In this document: positions 20,901 through 27,648 of the stretch, piece after piece
Position numbering within the stretch: the stretch's first letter is position 1
How the letters are laid out: the number at the start of each line of letters is the position of its first letter
Source: Falsiroseomonas algicola
Lineage (GTDB): Bacteria; Pseudomonadota; Alphaproteobacteria; Acetobacterales; Acetobacteraceae
DNA: 64,000 bases
Direction of reading: 5' to 3'
Assembly (NCBI RefSeq): GCF_011040385.1
Contig: NZ_JAAIKB010000007.1
Location: 124,001-188,000, forward strand
The notes under the pieces: generated by a model
The model's database searches: none
Seen by the model: only the letters and a program-made list of their open reading frames with translations
Told to the model about the DNA's origin: nothing
Program-made: the position numbers and the translations under genes

Positions 20901-21764
20901 TCACCCATTCCGCCCGGGCATCCGGTGGCGGAAGGCCAGTGCCTCCGCGACATGCGCCCGTGCCGTGCGCGGAAGGCCCGCGAGGTCCGCGATGGTGCGC
21001 GCCACGCGCAGCGCGCGGACGGTGCCGCGCGTGGAGAGGCGGAGGCGCGTGCTGGCGGTCTCCAGCAGCGTCAGCGCCTCGGACTCGGCGGTGGATTGCA
21101 GCGCGTCCCACTCGGCCTCCGCGTTGCAGCGCGCGCCGCCGCGGGCGCGCTGGCGGTCCCGCGCGGCGGCGACGCGGGCGGCGACGATGTCGGACTTCTC
21201 GCCGATCGGCGCGCGGGCGAGTTCGGCGGGGGGCAGGGGCTGGACCTCGATGGTCAGGTCCATGCGGTCCAGCAGCGGGCCCGAGAGGCGCATCTGGTAA
21301 TCCTGCCCGCAGCCCGGCGCCTTGGCGCATTCGCGGGCGGGATCGCCGAGATGGCCGCAGCGGCAGGGGTTCATCGCCGCGATGCATTGGAAGCGCGCGG
21401 GGTAGGTGACGTGCGCATTGGCCCGGCTGATGGTCGTGCGGCCGGTCTCCATGGGCTGGCGCAGCGCCTCCAGCGCCGGCCGCGGGAATTCCGGCCACTC
21501 GTCCAGGAACAGCACGCCGAGATGCGCCAGGCTGATCTCCCCGGGCCGCGCGCGGTGGCCGCCGCCGACCAGCGCGGCGACGGAGGCGCTGTGATGCGGC
21601 TCCCGGAAGGGCGGGCGGCGCAGCAGCAAGCCATCCTCCAGCATCCCGGCCACGGAATGGACGAGGGAGACGTCCAGCGCCTCGGCCGGCGTCAAATCCG
21701 GCAGCAGGCCGGGCAGGCGCGCGGCCAGCATGGATTTGCCGGCGCCGGGCGGGCCGACCATGAG
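20901..21764 (-). pseudogene. comM: comM, 3' fragment (ATPase part), cut off by an integrated element
   Basis: This fragment begins at MVGPPGAGKS, the Walker A of the ComM/YifB Mg-chelatase-like ATPase, and runs to the normal C-terminus. It includes FLDEWPEFPRPALEALRQPM, the cysteine cluster CRCGHLGDPARECAKAPGC and SGPLLDRMDLTIEVQ. ComM is a helicase that promotes branch migration during natural transformation. The N-terminal 215 codons lie at 27004-27648 with 5,239 bases of foreign DNA between. Deleting 21765-27003 rejoins both parts in frame to 502 codons reading HNLLMVGPPGAGKS. The fragment could be translated from ATG 21761 but has no ribosome site of the host gene. Confidence 0.93.
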
Positions 21765-21786
21765 CCTGTTATTGACAATGGACCCC
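21763..21786. other. attL: left junction of the element
   Basis: The AG core is at 21763-21764, then 9 bases, then arm GACAATGGACCCC at 21774-21786. Left of the core is comM sequence. The core is inferred as the only dinucleotide shared with attR that restores the comM frame and consensus. Serine integrases use a 2-base crossover, which fits. Confidence 0.82.
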
Positions 21787-21834
21787 GCCGAAACGATGTT
21801 TGGGGCCCGTCACGGCACGGTAGGGAGACCCACG

Positions 21835-23385
21835 ATGCGGCCTAGGGCCTTCAGTTACCTTCGCTTTTCCACCCCGGAGCAGATGAAGGGGGACAGCTTT
21901 AGACGGCAGACGGCGGCGGCGGAGCAATATGCCGCCCGTCACGGCCTAGACCTCGACACCTCCCTTACCTTTCAGGACCTAGGCGTGTCGGCCTTTCGGG
22001 GTCGCAACGCTGAGGCGGGACGCCTGGCGGACTTCAGGCAGGCGGTAGAGGACGGATTGGTTCCGCCAGGCTCGTATTTGCTCGTTGAAAGCCTAGACCG
22101 CATTTCACGCCAGGCCGCGCGAAAGGCGTTGGGCGTCCTCGGCGATATCACTGAGGGCGGGGTCACTGTCGTGACGCTGAACGATGGCCGGGCATATGAC
22201 CACGCCAGCCTCGACAACGACCCGATGTCGCTTCTCCTTGCCCTGCTGACCTTTATTCGGGCCAACGAAGAGAGCGCGACCAAGGCGAAGCGGCTGAGGG
22301 CAGCGTGGGAAGGCAAGCGCCTGAAGGCAGCGGACAAGCCCCTGACTTCCCGCATCCCGGCATGGCTGGAACTGGACAAGGCGACGGGGACCTTCCGCGT
22401 CATCCCGGAGCGGGCGGCAGTCGTGCGGCGCATCTTCGACATGCTGAAGGCGGGGGTGGGGCAGCACGCCATTGCCGAGACCTTCAACCGCGAAGGCGTC
22501 CCGACCTTCGGGGACCCCGGCACCAAGCGCAAAGCCGAAATGTGGCATCGTTCTTACATCGCAAAGATTGCAGGCAGCAACACGGTTATCGGCACGATGA
22601 CCCCGCACGAAACCGACCACAGCACCGGCAAGAAGGCCAGGAAGCCGTTGCAGCCCATCGAAGACTACTACCCGGCGGTGGTGGACCCTGAGACCTTTCA
22701 GGCCGTCCAGGCGCAACGGACCACCGGCAGGGCCCCGATTGTCCGGGGGGCGGGGGCGGGGGCGATCCAAAGCATCTTCGCGGGCCTTGCACGGTGCCCG
22801 TTGTGCGGCAGCACGATGACCCGCGTGCAGAAGGGCCCCAAGGGCGGGGCACCCCGGCTTGTCTGCACCAAGGCGAAGGCAGGGGCCGGGTGCCAGTATG
22901 TCTCAGTCAGGGCGGACCACGCGGAGGCGGCGCTACTCGACAACCTCAGCTTCATTCACGGCACGATGCCCACCGGCGAGGACACGCTAGACGGGGCAAT
23001 GGCAGAAGCAGACTTGAAGCTTTCGGTGGTGCGGGACGCCATCGGGAACCTTGTCGATGCCATCGCACAGGGCCCTTCACATGCCCTTTCCGCCCGACTG
23101 AGGGACCTTGAGGCGGAGGCGGCACGGCTTGAGCAGGAAGCCCGCGACCTCGCCCGCCAGGCGGCTGAGGCGGACCCGGTGCAGGTGGGGCGGCGGATGA
23201 CGGACCTAGAGGCGGCGGCGGCGGCAGAGCCCCGAGACCCCGCCCGCATCAATGCCTTGCTGCGCCAATCCTTTGACGGCGTGGTGGTGGACTACCGCAG
23301 GGGGCAACTGCGGTTTGCGTGGAAGCAGGGCGGGGAGACAAGCGTGGCCTTCATGGTCCCGACAGAGGACTTTGCAGGGGAGTGA
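21835..23385 (+). CDS. Large serine recombinase (integrase) of the element
   Basis: 516 residues from ATG 21835 (GGGAG 7 bases upstream). The resolvase-type catalytic domain is at residues ~1-150, with nucleophile Ser12 in YLRFSTPEQ and Arg10; ESLDRISRQ is a further active-site stretch. The recombinase domain follows at ~170-290 (TKAKRLRAAWEGKRL... AVVRRIFDMLKAGVGQHAIA). A zinc ribbon holds Cys321, Cys324, Cys344 and Cys353. A charged coiled-coil segment (~420-480) precedes the C-terminus. This is the full layout of phiC31/TP901-type integrases, which insert circular DNA at an attB. Its position beside attL and the intact domains suggest it is active. Confidence 0.95.
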   Translation: MRPRAFSYLRFSTPEQMKGDSFRRQTAAAEQYAARHGLDLDTSLTFQDLGVSAFRGRNAEAGRLADFRQAVEDGLVPPGSYLLVESLDRISRQAARKALGVLGDITEGGVTVVTLNDGRAYDHASLDNDPMSLLLALLTFIRANEESATKAKRLRAAWEGKRLKAADKPLTSRIPAWLELDKATGTFRVIPERAAVVRRIFDMLKAGVGQHAIAETFNREGVPTFGDPGTKRKAEMWHRSYIAKIAGSNTVIGTMTPHETDHSTGKKARKPLQPIEDYYPAVVDPETFQAVQAQRTTGRAPIVRGAGAGAIQSIFAGLARCPLCGSTMTRVQKGPKGGAPRLVCTKAKAGAGCQYVSVRADHAEAALLDNLSFIHGTMPTGEDTLDGAMAEADLKLSVVRDAIGNLVDAIAQGPSHALSARLRDLEAEAARLEQEARDLARQAAEADPVQVGRRMTDLEAAAAAEPRDPARINALLRQSFDGVVVDYRRGQLRFAWKQGGETSVAFMVPTEDFAGE

Positions 23386-23416
23386 GGGGGCGGAAGGGTA
23401 TTGGGAGGGGTCTTCA

Positions 23417-23436
23417 CGGTGCAGTCAGCTGCACCG
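23417..23436. repeat. Element hairpin repeat, copy 1 (20 bases)
   Basis: CGGTGCAGTCAGCTGCACCG: an 8 bp stem around TCAG, between the convergent stops of the recombinase and the membrane-protein gene, so it can act as a two-way terminator. Identical copies lie at 25082 and 25470. Confidence 0.85.
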
Positions 23437-23443
23437 TTCGCCA

Positions 23444-24169
23444 CTATTTGCTGATTAGCTGAATGGCAGCGATCAATAGCGCAGCCGCAGGACCTATCAG
23501 AGCAATTAGGAAAGCGCCACCATGTTTCTCCCAGAAATTTGCTTCGAGCCGCGCCTTGTCAACAAATATCCGGCTTCTGCCTTGCCGAAAAAACAGATAT
23601 GCGACCAGCGGACCCAGTAACATACCGACCAAGCCCGCACCCAAATCACCAAAAGGGAAATGCAAAGCGGCCGCGATTTTCCCAGCGAACTCTACGACCA
23701 CCAAAATCAGTGCCAGAACCGCCAAGACCCACACGATGCCGAGAACCATGTTTGCGGCCGGATGCTCCCCCACGTCTGGAAGGCTCATCCTTGCACACTT
23801 CTTCAGCCGCGCAGTCAATCGGTCTGCAGCGTCACGCCCGGCTGGATATCGCGCTAACGACGTTGCGGATACGGTTGCCCCGTTACTCTGATCTAAATAA
23901 AGAAATAACCAAGCATTGTCGGCCACAATGTCAATTTTCTTTGGTCGGGGATCGTTGCCCGTTTCGATTAATTGGGTCACACTGGAATACTCATAATCGT
24001 TCGTGGAGAGTTTATACGAACCAACCGTTTGAGTTAATATTCGATGAATTTCTTCAAGATCATCCTTGTAAATATCTACCTTGCTAAACCTGTTTCTAAT
24101 ATCCTTCGTAATGGGCTTGGGGCCGGTGTCGCCCGGCTCATTTGCACCAGACAGCGCGTTCATTGGCAT
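23444..24169 (-). CDS. Element-encoded membrane protein of unknown function
   Basis: Up to 241 residues; starts at ATG 24169 or 24163 cannot be told apart and neither has a strong ribosome site. Residues ~1-130 are soluble and charged (ITKDIRNRFSKVDIYKDDLE, then WLFLYLDQSNGATVSATSLA). Three hydrophobic segments follow (MVLGIVWVLAVLALILVVVE, a GAGLVGMLLGPLVAYLFF segment, and FLIALIGPAAALLIAAIQLI). I do not recognise a family. Base composition is lower in G+C than neighbouring genes, a sign of transfer. It converges on the recombinase and follows the HNH gene on the same strand, 44 bases downstream. A sensing soluble domain plus membrane domain would fit an effector or stress protein, but that is speculation. 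Confidence 0.7.
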   Translation of the reverse strand: MPMNALSGANEPGDTGPKPITKDIRNRFSKVDIYKDDLEEIHRILTQTVGSYKLSTNDYEYSSVTQLIETGNDPRPKKIDIVADNAWLFLYLDQSNGATVSATSLARYPAGRDAADRLTARLKKCARMSLPDVGEHPAANMVLGIVWVLAVLALILVVVEFAGKIAAALHFPFGDLGAGLVGMLLGPLVAYLFFRQGRSRIFVDKARLEANFWEKHGGAFLIALIGPAAALLIAAIQLISK

Positions 24170-24213
24170 CCCATGTTGCTGCGTTTATCGTCCATGTCGC
24201 ATGTGCAGCGACC

Positions 24214-25014
24214 CTAGCGCAAACCTTGTGCGCCGTTAGGCTCAGTGAGTTGCACAGGAAGCAAGGCCCCGCGAAGTTCCTCCACAGTCAGCCAGGGCCG
24301 GGCGGAGTGGATCATCCGGTGGCAATTGGCGCAAAGCAACGCCAGGTCACTGAGGCGGGTGGTCTCCCCGGGGCGGAGTGTGTGGACGGGCCGGGTATGG
24401 TGGCACTCGATGAAGCCCGCGCCCCTCTGCCCATAGCGGGCCCCGAAGTCGAACCCGCAAGCCTCACAAGCGAGGCCCTTCCCGGCCTTCAGGGCCGCCG
24501 CCTTGCGCTGTTCGACAAGCTTCCGACTTCGCTCCCGGAACCGATGAAGGCGCGTTAGCACCCGTCCCTCCGGCGCCTCCGCCTCCATGGGGTCATCCTC
24601 CCCGGGGTCTGGGGCGGGGAGGGACGGCCCCTCATTGCCCATAATGGCCGCTTCGATGGCCTTTGCGGTGGCATGTAGCCGGGCAGGATCGGCGGCGAAG
24701 GTGTCCCAGACCGGGCCCTCCTCCTTGTTCCCGGCCTTCAAGCCCTTCTTGCCCTCGGCGGTGTAGTCCGGATCGAAGCGGCGGAAGTTCTGCAACTTCA
24801 TGTAGCAGCCCGCCGGGTTCCGCAGGTCGGGGCGTCCCTCCTCACCCCCCGCCCGATGAAGGCGATTGAGGACCTTCGACAGGGCCGTGACCTCGGGGCC
24901 ACCCTTGCTAGGGAGCCTGGGGCGGTGGGCAATATACAGGCTGAGGGCTAGGATCAGTTCGTCTCGCGACCACGGCGGGTTGCGACCGGCCGGGGTGTCA
25001 TCGCCTGGGGTCAT
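24214..25014 (-). CDS. HNH endonuclease, McrA-like, element cargo
   Basis: 266 residues from ATG 25014; a TTG at 25056 would add 14. The N-terminal domain (WSRDELILALSLYIAHRP... RNPAGCYMKLQNFRRFDPDY) is of the type found in front of HNH nucleases in predicted restriction enzymes. A basic linker (RLHRFRERSRKLVEQRKAAA) follows, then the HNH domain: Cys183-x2-Cys186, catalytic ECHH (His205/His206), and Cys228-x2-Cys231 with NCHRMIH. Family knowledge suggests cutting of modified or foreign DNA. No methylase is adjacent, which fits a modification-dependent nuclease. It probably shares a transcript with the membrane protein. Confidence 0.85.
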   Translation of the reverse strand: MTPGDDTPAGRNPPWSRDELILALSLYIAHRPRLPSKGGPEVTALSKVLNRLHRAGGEEGRPDLRNPAGCYMKLQNFRRFDPDYTAEGKKGLKAGNKEEGPVWDTFAADPARLHATAKAIEAAIMGNEGPSLPAPDPGEDDPMEAEAPEGRVLTRLHRFRERSRKLVEQRKAAALKAGKGLACEACGFDFGARYGQRGAGFIECHHTRPVHTLRPGETTRLSDLALLCANCHRMIHSARPWLTVEELRGALLPVQLTEPNGAQGLR

Positions 25015-25081
25015 TCCGCCATCATCACGCCCCGCAACGGGCACCGCAACGGGCAACTGCGGGCCGCTCAGGGGCCCTTTC

Positions 25082-25101
25082 CGGTGCAGTCAGCTGCACC
25101 G
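25082..25101. repeat. Element hairpin repeat, copy 2 (20 bases)
   Basis: Identical to the copy at 23417. It lies 68 bases upstream of the HNH start, where it could be a leader hairpin or operator rather than a terminator. Confidence 0.85.
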
Positions 25102-25288
25102 ATAGCCGTGGCGGGGAGACGCGACGAGCGATTGCCGATTATGGACCACCTTATACCGCCGAACGCCGCGCCAATTAGGGACCACCTATGCCGGGAAGCT
25201 GATATTTAAGATGCATATTAAGGTGCTCTTAGAGGGAACCGTAAATGGAACCCTCCCCATACCACCCTCATTGAAGACCCTTAGAGGG

Positions 25289-25305
25289 CCCTTTAAAGGG
25301 GCGCC
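25289..25305. repeat. Palindrome CCCTTTAAAGGGGCGCC, copy 1
   Basis: First of three related palindromes in the gene-free part of the element, each centred on TTAA and followed by GCGC in the same orientation. Possible binding sites for an element protein. Confidence 0.55.
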
Positions 25306-25328
25306 TCCCTCCGCCCCCCTCACCGAGG

Positions 25329-25343
25329 CCCTTTTAAGGGCGC
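25329..25343. repeat. Palindrome CCCTTTTAAGGGCGC, copy 2
   Basis: Second TTAA-centred palindrome, 40 bases after the first and in the same orientation. A more degenerate relative, CCCCTAAGGGCCCC, lies at 25452-25465. Confidence 0.5.
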
Positions 25344-25469
25344 TGGAAGGGAGACCCCCACCGTGGCCGCCTCCCAGCCACCTCCCTCGGTCTGCCCTTC
25401 CTCGGTCGCTGTGCCCGGGCATCTTGTGGTGGGGGTCGTCGGGGTGGGTTTCCCCTAAGGGCCCCGTAG

Positions 25470-25489
25470 CGGTGCAGTCAGCTGCACCG
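25470..25489. repeat. Element hairpin repeat, copy 3 (20 bases)
   Basis: Third perfect copy of CGGTGCAGTCAGCTGCACCG, in the gene-free region and not next to any believable coding end. Confidence 0.85.
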
Positions 25490-25541
25490 GAAGCGAGGCA
25501 GCGGCTGGGGCCCCGGAAAGGGGGCGGTCTCCTGGGCGGGT

Positions 25542-25556
25542 CCCTTAAGGGGCGCC
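25542..25556. repeat. Palindrome CCCTTAAGGGGCGCC, copy 3
   Basis: Third TTAA-centred palindrome of the set, 213 bases after copy 2 and in the same orientation. Confidence 0.5.
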
Positions 25557-25828
25557 AACGGGGCAGCGAGCAGCCTTGTGGGGTGGTGATGGCAATTAGA
25601 CCGTCTTTCCCGGTCTCCCAGCCGGCGGAGAGCGTTCCGGTCAATGGTGGGCCGGATCGGCGGCAAGCCTAACCACGCCATCTAGCTGGCAACCGATTAT
25701 CTGTTGCATTTTCGCAACACTCTCCCTGGGGTCATACTGTTTTTGAAATAGTCCCGCTTGGGGGAGTATCATTGCGATATCGGTCTGAAGCGCCAATCTG
25801 GTCTCCCGCATCGAAGCAGGGGAGCCGC

Positions 25829-26056
25829 ATGACGATGGCGCTTAGTCTGGTGATTGATGGGCATGGGGTATTTGCCCGGGTGGCGCGTTGGGAAGCCTAT
25901 GCCCGGAAGGACCGCACAGGACCCCGGCGGTGGTCCCTTGAGCGGGAACGGGGGGCGGTGGACGTGTCGGCGGGGACCCTCCGCATCACGGTCTCAGCGG
26001 TGCCGACCACCGAACCGCAAAGGGCACCGGCAGGGCACAGTAACCAGCCCGGCTAG
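25829..26056 (+). CDS. Small hypothetical protein of the element (75 aa)
   Basis: ATG 25829 is preceded at 5-11 bases by AGGGGAG, a strong ribosome site, and an AT-rich promoter-like stretch lies 60-120 bases upstream. The product (MTMALSLVIDGHGVFARVAR... to ...GHSNQPG) has no known motif, no signal peptide and no membrane segment. The last dozen codons and the TAG lie inside the first copy of a 79-base direct repeat. It may be a small regulator or excision factor, but nothing in the sequence shows that. Confidence 0.5.
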   Translation: MTMALSLVIDGHGVFARVARWEAYARKDRTGPRRWSLERERGAVDVSAGTLRITVSAVPTTEPQRAPAGHSNQPG

Positions 26057-26100
26057 GAACTCTGTGGACGCCCCTCAGCCGGTCGCCCTGTAGTGCCGCC
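26022..26100 (+). repeat. 79-base direct repeat, copy 1
   Basis: It covers the end of the 75-residue frame and 44 bases beyond. It matches 26207-26285 along its full 79 bases without gaps, with under ten differences. The period is 185 bases. Confidence 0.8.
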
Positions 26101-26206
26101 TCCCAGCCCGCGCCTGAACCATTGCACGGGCTTCCATACTCTCAGCCGCGTGGGGGAGCGGGCGAAGGTGCGGGGGAGGGGTGCGCGGGCGCGGGGGAAC
26201 CTCCAC

Positions 26207-26285
26207 GGGCACCGGCAGGGCACAGTAACTAGCCCGGCTAGGAACTCTGTTGAAGCCCCTTAGCCGGTCGTCCGGTAGTGCCGCC
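26207..26285 (+). repeat. 79-base direct repeat, copy 2
   Basis: Same orientation as copy 1 at 26022. The shared 12-mer CTAGGAACTCTG falls at 26238-26249, matching 26053-26064 in copy 1. Confidence 0.8.
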
Positions 26286-26521
26286 GCCGGGGCCCTGTCC
26301 AAACCCTTGCAGGGCCTTCCAAACCCTGAAGCACGGCCCGGGGCGACCCAGCGCCGGGGAACTCTCCCCGATGTTTTTGCCGCAAACCTGAGAGGGCAAC
26401 CCCTCGGGGCCGGGATCGGATTACCCCCCGTGCCCCCTCGGGAGGGTGGCGGGGTGGTGGTGCCTTGGGTGAGGGTGCCAGGGTCGGGGGACCACCGGGG
26501 CCAGACCACCGCCGGGAACCT

Positions 26522-26533
26522 CTAGGAACTCTG
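26522..26533 (+). repeat. Third copy of the 12-mer CTAGGAACTCTG
   Basis: The same 12 bases that sit inside both 79-base repeats, here followed by a different sequence apart from a CCGCCGCC tract. It marks a decayed or partial third repeat. Confidence 0.6.
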
Positions 26534-26664
26534 CTCGGGGCATCCACCGCCGCCGCCCGGGCCCCCCCGCACCTCCCGCCATGGCGCCCCGTCTCTCGCC
26601 CCGCGAAGGGCCCGCTATGGGCATGTCATGGAGACCCGTGCCAGGCCGCTATCGGTGGGGCGCG

Positions 26665-26952
26665 TCACAGGTCGTCGGCCCATTCCTCGGCCCCGACCTC
26701 TGGGTAAGGCAGCACCTCCCCCGGTCGCGCCAGGTGCATCGGCACCCGCACAGGGGCGGCGAGGGGCACCCGAACGGGCCCGGCGGTCCATCCGTCACCG
26801 ATGAAGGCTAGGTCGCCCTCGCCCCGGCCGCATTGGCTGCAAGCCCGCCACAGGCGCACCACCGGATGAACGCCCATCCCAAGGGCCACGGCGCGGTCCA
26901 TGCACAGGGCGGTCCGGGTTCCACACCACCGGCACCCGACCAGAACCCCCAC
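26665..26952 (-). CDS. Possible small zinc-ribbon protein of the element (up to 95 aa)
   Basis: An open frame that is continuous with, and in the same frame as, the interrupted comM N-terminus. Within the element it could start at GTG 26952 or ATG 26901; neither has a clear ribosome site. It holds two CxxC pairs, GCRWCGTRTALC and RACSQCGRGE, as in zinc ribbons, followed by a proline-rich tail ending EEWADDL. If read from the comM start it would be a fusion of 215 ComM residues and 112 element residues. Coding is supported by the paired cysteines and the length of the open frame in GC-rich DNA, but only modestly. Confidence 0.42.
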   Translation of the reverse strand: MGVLVGCRWCGTRTALCMDRAVALGMGVHPVVRLWRACSQCGRGEGDLAFIGDGWTAGPVRVPLAAPVRVPMHLARPGEVLPYPEVGAEEWADDL

Positions 26953-26979
26953 GCGGGCGCGGGCAAGAGCGGAGGCGGT

Positions 26980-27003
26980 GGGGTCCACTGTCCCTATCAG
27001 CAG
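26980..27003. other. attR: right junction of the element
   Basis: Arm GGGGTCCACTGTC at 26980-26992, then 9 bases, then the AG core at 27002-27003, after which comM resumes (minus-strand codons CTC AAC read as HNL). The arm is the inverse of the attL arm with one mismatch, at the identical distance from the core. Confidence 0.82.
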
Positions 27004-27648
27004 GAGGTTGTGGCCGCCGGCGGCCGCGATCTCGAGCGCGCGCTTGGCGCTTTCCTGGCCGCGCACCTCGCTGAGGCAGGGGGCGGCCTGGACGCGGTCA
27101 TCGAGCCGGGGCGGGGAGGGGGCGGAGAGCGTCTGGGTGCCGCGGAAGTGGTTGATGAGCGCGGGCAGGTCGGGTGGTGCGAGGACCTGGATGCGCCCGG
27201 CCCAGGCGGCTTCCGGCCCCTGGCGTTCCGGGCAGACCAGGCCGAGTTCCCGCGCGCTGGCCGCCATCGCCGCCGGCAGCACGCCGGCCACCGGCGCCAG
27301 CGTGCCATCCAGCGCCAATTCGCCGAGGGCCGCGAAATCGGCGAGTTCGTCTCGGGGCAGGATCTCCATCGCAGCCAGCACGCCGAGCGCGATGGGGAGG
27401 TCGAAATGGCTGCCCTCCTTCGCCAGATCGGCGGGCGCCATGTTCACCAGCACCCGCTTCGGCGGCAGGGACAGGCCGATGGCGGTCAGTGCGGCGCGGA
27501 CCCGTTCACGGGATTCGCCCACGGCCTTGTCCGGCAATCCGACGACGAGGAAGGCGGGCAGGCCGGGCGCGATCTGGACCTGGACCTCGACAGGCAGGGC
27601 TTCGACGCCGCTGAAGGCGAAGGTCTGGATCCGGGCGATCGTGCTCAT
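27004..27648 (-). pseudogene. comM: comM, 5' fragment (N-terminal domain)
   Basis: 215 codons from MSTIARIQTFAFSGVEALPV through the Lon-protease-like ChlI domain (LPAFLVVGLPDKAVGESRER, VNMAPADLAKEGSHFDLPIA) to RGQESAKRALEIAAAGGHNL. It stops exactly where Walker A should begin. The frame then runs on into the element to a stop at 26665, so a 327-residue chimera without an ATPase may be made. The host gene is therefore broken unless the element excises. The 3' part is at 20901-21764. Confidence 0.93.

Follow-up and report, generated by a model that had tools for sequence, protein, structure and literature searches.

The comM gene of Falsiroseomonas algicola is interrupted by an element that carries a large serine recombinase (LSR). 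The interruption lies in a 64,000-nt stretch of contig NZ_JAAIKB010000007.1 (positions 124,001 to 188,000; hereafter the window, numbered from its first nucleotide), in which 5,239 bp (21765-27003, with a 2-bp overlap, AG) separate the two parts of comM. The inserted DNA is almost certainly a small integrated mobile element, and its own LSR is predicted to have recombined an attachment site of the element, attP, with a site inside comM, attB. A serine-recombinase element in comM had been proposed in a sequence-only reading of the window, and this proposal was borne out by the domains of the LSR, by the structure of the att sites and by an empty site in a related genome.

Ends of the element and proposed integration

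The features that define the insertion are:

20901..21764, minus strand: comM C part, codons 216-502 plus stop, Walker A intact (from the open reading frame (ORF) and family models)
21763..21764: overlap dinucleotide AG in attL (bases 1 and 2 of codon 216, CT as read on the coding strand)
21765..21789: attP half-site at the left element end (19/25 dyad with the right arm)
21835..23385, plus strand: LSR, 516 aa, with Resolvase, Recombinase and zinc-ribbon domains
26977..27001: attP half-site at the right element end
27002..27003: overlap dinucleotide AG in attR
27004..27648, minus strand: comM N part, codons 1-215 (from the ORF, family models and reconstruction of the junction)

Both parts of comM are open and match the Mg_chelatase/ChlI and YifB (TIGR00368) models. 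Removal of 21765-27003 in silico reproduced the frame of 502 codons described in the sequence-only reading, with a junction that reads GHNLLMVGPPGAGKS. Since many neighbouring joins of the two parts are likewise in frame, the restored frame alone proves little and was rejected as proof of the element ends, which were set instead by the AG common to both junctions, the dyad symmetry of attP and an empty site in a relative. The attP reconstructed by joining the element ends shows its dyad around AG, the best centre among those tried, and the second-best dyad (18) had the same centre without the overlap. A core of AGC, read by eye, was rejected because the dyad is centred on AG, which also yields the HNLLM spacing found in relatives. 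In another genome of the same genus (G004), comM is uninterrupted and its protein is 97% identical to that of the joined gene; the joined site and the G004 gene agree at 93% of 1,512 nt, and the 6 gap positions all lie away from the junction. The 2-bp overlap permits the left boundary to be placed at 21763 or at 21765, so that the two positions given earlier for it agree. A split within the Walker A motif, as had been claimed, was not found: the motif (GPPGAGKS, codons 219-226) lies whole within the C part, and the cut at codon 216 falls three codons upstream of it.

The LSR gene starts 70 bp from attL. The Resolvase catalytic, Recombinase and zinc-ribbon domains of its product, as well as the 2-bp overlap and the dyad-symmetric attP, identify it as an LSR, and comparison with PHROGs assigned it to the integrase family phrog_95 (E 4.1e-77). 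Among solved structures, the best match of the LSR profile was SP-beta YokA, and the integrase of phage A118 was also matched. Matches in phage (175 records) and plasmid (59 records) collections were all below 60% identity. Viral contigs scanned with a single LSR gave one candidate stretch and no confirmed case.

In the proposed mechanism, the LSR would recombine attP with attB in comM, using the first two bases of codon 216 as the 2-bp overlap. Integration would leave hybrid attL and attR sites and would part codons 1-215, which encode the N-terminal domain, from codons 216-502, which encode the AAA+ part with Walker A. With its two halves separated, full-length ComM could no longer be made, and the function of ComM would presumably be lost; the insertion may plausibly block transformation. 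A directionality factor could in turn reverse the integration.

The same codon in other genomes

The sequence-only reading had suggested a survey of the family for interruptions at the same codon, and such interruptions were found. A ComM match (E 1e-12) was present in 374 of the 397 Acetobacteraceae genomes; 24 genomes with at least two ComM matches and 16 others were searched again, and three, namely the window genome, G074 and G422, have a comM that is clearly cut at codon 216 and flanked by an LSR, in a survey that is blind to insertions on contig breaks and that checked single-match genomes for completeness only in part. In a member of another alphaproteobacterial family (G048; L091, L092, L093), 26.6 kb separate the two parts of comM, and an LSR neighbours the N part. 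G150 was rejected as a same-site insertion because its comM is continuous across the site and only then meets a run of N. In G136, comM is broken at the site over two contigs (end of L079, start of L080) that have 4 bp in common; this break could possibly reflect an element lost in assembly.

Relatives of the LSR were also sought across species genomes with an alignment of five LSRs as query, four of which are located in comM, and the best 80 of 185 relatives, ranked by likeness to this query, were kept. A part of comM adjoins the LSR in 58 of these 80, which together with the window and L091 gives 60 loci. The 58 loci span four phyla and comprise 38 Alpha-, 10 Gamma- and 4 Betaproteobacteria, 3 Desulfuromonadia and 1 each of Syntrophia, Planctomycetota and Verrucomicrobiota. 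The distance between the LSR and the comM part is at most 300 bp in 57 of the 60 loci and at most 1.2 kb in all of them. The ends of the tblastn matches scatter around codon 216, with C parts starting at codons 194-216 and N parts ending at codons 214-239, except for the broken N parts of L113 and L132. The LSR lies beside the C part and opposite to comM in 41 of the 60 loci; in 18 it adjoins the N part and points the same way as comM. Its 5' end is nearest the junction in 59. L154 is the single locus with the 3' end of the LSR nearest the junction.

The att sites of these loci follow a common pattern. The first two bases of codon 216 were CT in 31 of the 39 N-side and 38 of the 50 C-side junctions that were read; the other cores were TT (6 N-side, 11 C-side), GT (1 and 1) and TG (1 N-side). 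Of the 29 two-sided loci, all but L125 carry an identical dinucleotide at the two junctions (28 of 29), while the next best agreement at offsets from -8 to +8 was 18 of 29. Because the coding-strand core is identical in both LSR arrangements, the LSR gene can sit on either side of attP. The attP arms tend to ATAACATG adjoining the core and to GGGTC about 20 bp out. Over 29 attP sites, the mean dyad was 15.4 of 26, compared with 5.7-7.7 when slid by 1-5 bases and 10.9 when arms of different elements were combined.

These data also bear on whether comM could have been parted by a rearrangement or an assembly error. No point in support of this explanation was found, and the empty comM of G004 makes a rearrangement, named in the sequence-only reading as a possible refutation, needless. 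A cut at the same codon recurs in many separate assemblies, including three titled complete (L101, L106, L133), and the matching 2-bp overlaps and the att structure contradict such an origin, which is extremely improbable.

The ends, the overlap, the attP dyad, the empty site of the relative and the recurrence of the same codon in many hosts can all be read from sequence. Several points nevertheless weigh against integration of a mobile element by its own LSR. All of the evidence for it comes from sequence, and no candidate for a directionality factor was identified. As the ranking used a query drawn mostly from comM, the proportion of 58 in 80 is no estimate of prevalence. The cases in Planctomycetota and Verrucomicrobiota are a single metagenome-assembled genome each. 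For 22 of the 80 relatives there is no comM in the stretch that was fetched; some of these lie near contig ends, and others probably have different targets. Lastly, G031 carries a relative of the LSR (37-39%) on a contig without comM, while its comM reads through codon 216.

Contents and history of the element

The remaining features of the element are:

23418..23435: 18-bp palindrome GGTGCAGTCAGCTGCACC, copy 1
23444..24169, minus strand: 241-aa protein, no family match above cut-off, hydrophobic segments judged by eye only
24214..25056, minus strand: HNH endonuclease, 280 aa, TTG start as listed, weak likeness to type II and type IV restriction models
25083..25100: 18-bp palindrome, copy 2
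25471..25488: 18-bp palindrome, copy 3
25829..26056, plus strand: small protein of 75 aa that shares 57% identity across 58 aa with a protein from a prophage-like region of the host genome
26012..26327: pair of 131-bp direct repeats, 82% alike (26012-26142 and 26197-26327)
26665..27003, minus strand: in-frame extension of the comM N part into the element until a stop, a putative coding stretch

The element has a G+C content of 60-68%, its surroundings 70-75%. The stretch at 25.1-27.0 kb, about 1.9 kb long, is otherwise without convincing genes and contains the 131-bp repeat pair. An Rfam search of the element gave no match up to E 0.5, and a scan for promoters and terminators (2 promoter-like hits versus 1.0 in shuffled sequence, 1 terminator-like hit versus 4.8) was not used. 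Of 58 related genomes, just 2 matched the DNA of the element outside the LSR, and these over short lengths only. Comparison of six element ORFs with PHROGs revealed no structural or packaging genes, and the element was not classed as a prophage. Relaxase and conjugation families were absent from the scanned ORFs, some small ORFs being unscanned and no relaxase-specific search having been made; TnsF, Tn7 protein and tyrosine recombinase domains were absent from the scanned ORFs as well (four with Pfam, six with PHROGs). The cargo is not claimed as a defence island, as only the HNH protein showed matches to restriction models and these were weak.

The 6.56-Mb genome contains exactly three copies of the 18-bp palindrome, each inside the element. 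A 20-bp form with at most 2 mismatches was found at nine positions, of which three belong to a prophage-like region on contig C22 (L186, G000:C22:594000-613000), and near-copies are also located on C33, C1 and C66. The prophage-like region encodes a phage-type integrase, a ParB-like protein, a small serine recombinase and a tail-spike-like protein, and it has the small protein and the palindromes in common with the comM element.

Some of these contents could suggest an immobile remnant, i.e., a degraded phage or satellite that became fixed in comM and whose LSR is inactive. The small size of the element (just 5.2 kb), the long stretch with little convincing coding sequence, the absence of structural, packaging and conjugation families among the scanned ORFs and the features shared with the prophage-like region are consistent with this explanation. 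On the other hand, the LSR is open and has all three domains, both att half-sites are present, and matches to the cargo DNA in the 58 related genomes amount to two short pieces. Elements of similar size are moreover common at comM: those of 31 two-sided loci measure 3.6-10.5 kb, with the upper bound set by the 10-kb flank that was used. A remnant is considered unlikely.

When ORFs of at least 70 aa were clustered, no cluster but that of the LSR was present in every one of the 32 two-sided elements (31 elements under a stricter locus rule). Two of the next three clusters overlap the LSR gene on the opposite strand; one, which includes a small resolvase-like protein, joins 20 elements by single linkage. 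In six Bradyrhizobium pairs, dS was 0.15-0.52 for comM and 0.98-1.88 for the LSR, which indicates that these elements were gained separately. Between Halomonas L109 and L132, the LSR (dS 0.79) is closer than comM (dS 1.3-1.4), which also argues against vertical descent. Vertical inheritance of the insertions is thus contradicted by these pairs, many other pairs being saturated in dS. A single origin of comM targeting was likewise rejected, as in a quick tree of 83 rows (60 labelled comM) this label was clustered but formed no one clean clade, with 8 label changes compared to a shuffled mean of 20.1, of which 5 are forced by starred branches. This tree has no bootstrap; it leaves out L170, which was too short, contains two additional phage rows, and has rows labelled "none" of which some lie near contig ends.

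Split comM genes look young or still constrained. The dN/dS values were 0.03-0.33 for pairs with split genes and 0.18-0.45 for pairs without, the control genes including L022 and L026, each of which carries a TAG; the window comM compared with that of G004 gave 0.14 (N part) and 0.05 (C part), against 0.18-0.45 for pairs without the window. By tblastn, a comM part is truncated, split or contains a stop in 8 of the 60 interrupted loci (L106, L109, L111, L113, L130, L131, L132, L139), and four further N parts have apparent stops in or near the read-through.

The open reading frames and low dN/dS of both window comM parts could also point to a reversible switch (active lysogeny), in which regulated excision would restore comM at times when recombination is of use. 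Some elements that interrupt comK or sporulation genes are known reversible switches, and YokA, the best structural match of the LSR, has a role in excision. Homologues of comEC and dprA are present in the host genome, which is no proof of competence. However, a recent insertion accounts equally well for the intact parts, no directionality factor or regulatory link was found, and comM is damaged in the eight loci named above; a switch appears improbable. A broader scenario is likewise improbable: that one serine integrase group tracked a single comM codon across four phyla, keeping the matched dinucleotide and the attP arm pattern while swapping cargo, and that the split is a reversible switch with excision upon host competence or upon induction of a co-resident prophage that shares the palindromes.

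comM as a target and comparison with known systems

The sequence-only reading had tentatively attributed the targeting of comM in part to conservation of the Walker A DNA. Conservation of the attB window (codons 209-222) was above the gene mean both in 60 diverse loci (0.72 versus 0.59) and in 30 loci of the family (0.84 versus 0.78), but it ranked 50 of 487 and 102 of 488 windows, respectively, so that conservation does not single out this site and is not supported as the sole reason, although it may contribute to site choice. The best window in the diverse set was codons 295-308, AHLGVLFLDEWPEF, which we take to be the Walker B stretch, and the window adjoining attB, from codon 216, was the fifth best among non-overlapping windows.

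In another genome of the family (G381; L082, G381:C6:19000-33000), comM is cut at about codons 281-304 by an insert that encodes TnsA, Mu-type transposase, TniB and TniQ domains; a neighbouring gene has a sub-cut-off match to a phage-integrase N-terminal domain. Together with the LSR at codon 216, these Tn7-like genes indicate that two unrelated chemistries are used at two places of comM, in agreement with the earlier proposal that different elements converge on this gene. Insertion of the TnsF-guided Tn6022 and Tsy at the conserved Walker B region of comM has been reported (PMC10293859), and loss of ComM has been argued to favour the element (PMC4774983 and PMC11472951), an idea that the sequence-only reading had also put forward. 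As judged from this literature, comM is most likely chosen since it is dispensable yet widely conserved, which would give a broad host range; a loss of ComM that lowers recombination able to delete the element would be a possible extra gain.

Among known integrases, those of SP-beta (YokA) and phage A118 have the same architecture as the window LSR but are distant from it, and they have other targets. YbcK of lambda-like phages (32% identity) and the recombinase of Burkholderia phage JC1 (37% identity) were among the best-ranked phage matches; unlike for the window LSR, the stretches available for them, the match extended by up to 1.5 kb, contained no comM.

Integrases of this type are already known to target comM often, and the element described here is of a known kind. 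Durrant et al. 2022 (PMC10083194) reported that a gene named magnesium chelatase is the target of 12.4% of predicted site-specific integrases and that competence genes are enriched as targets; this "magnesium chelatase/ATP-dependent protease" gene is ComM/YifB, identified here from the YifB family name. As in the window, those elements place diverse LSRs in the same gene by annotation. The sections covered mention neither comM by name nor the codon or an att consensus for it, whereas the codon and the att sites are given here, and no published statement of the codon or att consensus for this comM site was found in the literature covered, supplements excluded. The site defined here (codon 216, core usually CT or TT, arms near ATAACATG and GGGTC) thus concerns a gene reported as the target of roughly one in eight predicted site-specific LSRs, and it is used across four phyla, two of them represented by a single metagenome-assembled genome each. 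Dozens of candidate integrases are listed with mapped sites. The findings also bear on why competence-linked genes are targeted, with serine integrases acting before Walker A and Tn7-like elements further downstream.

Other reports describe similar insertions. Phage WO sr1WO integrates into the magnesium chelatase gene of Wolbachia (PMC9203015) and so resembles the window element in placing an LSR in a gene of the same annotation, but it is a prophage. Croucher et al. 2016 (PMC4774983) reported comM insertions with CF65_00446-like integrases at an orthologous place across species, a recurrence similar to that of the LSR elements. Tn6022 and Tsy are comM-specific as well (PMC10293859), but they use Tn7-like or tyrosine-recombinase chemistry near Walker B, whereas the window element carries an LSR and lies upstream of Walker A.

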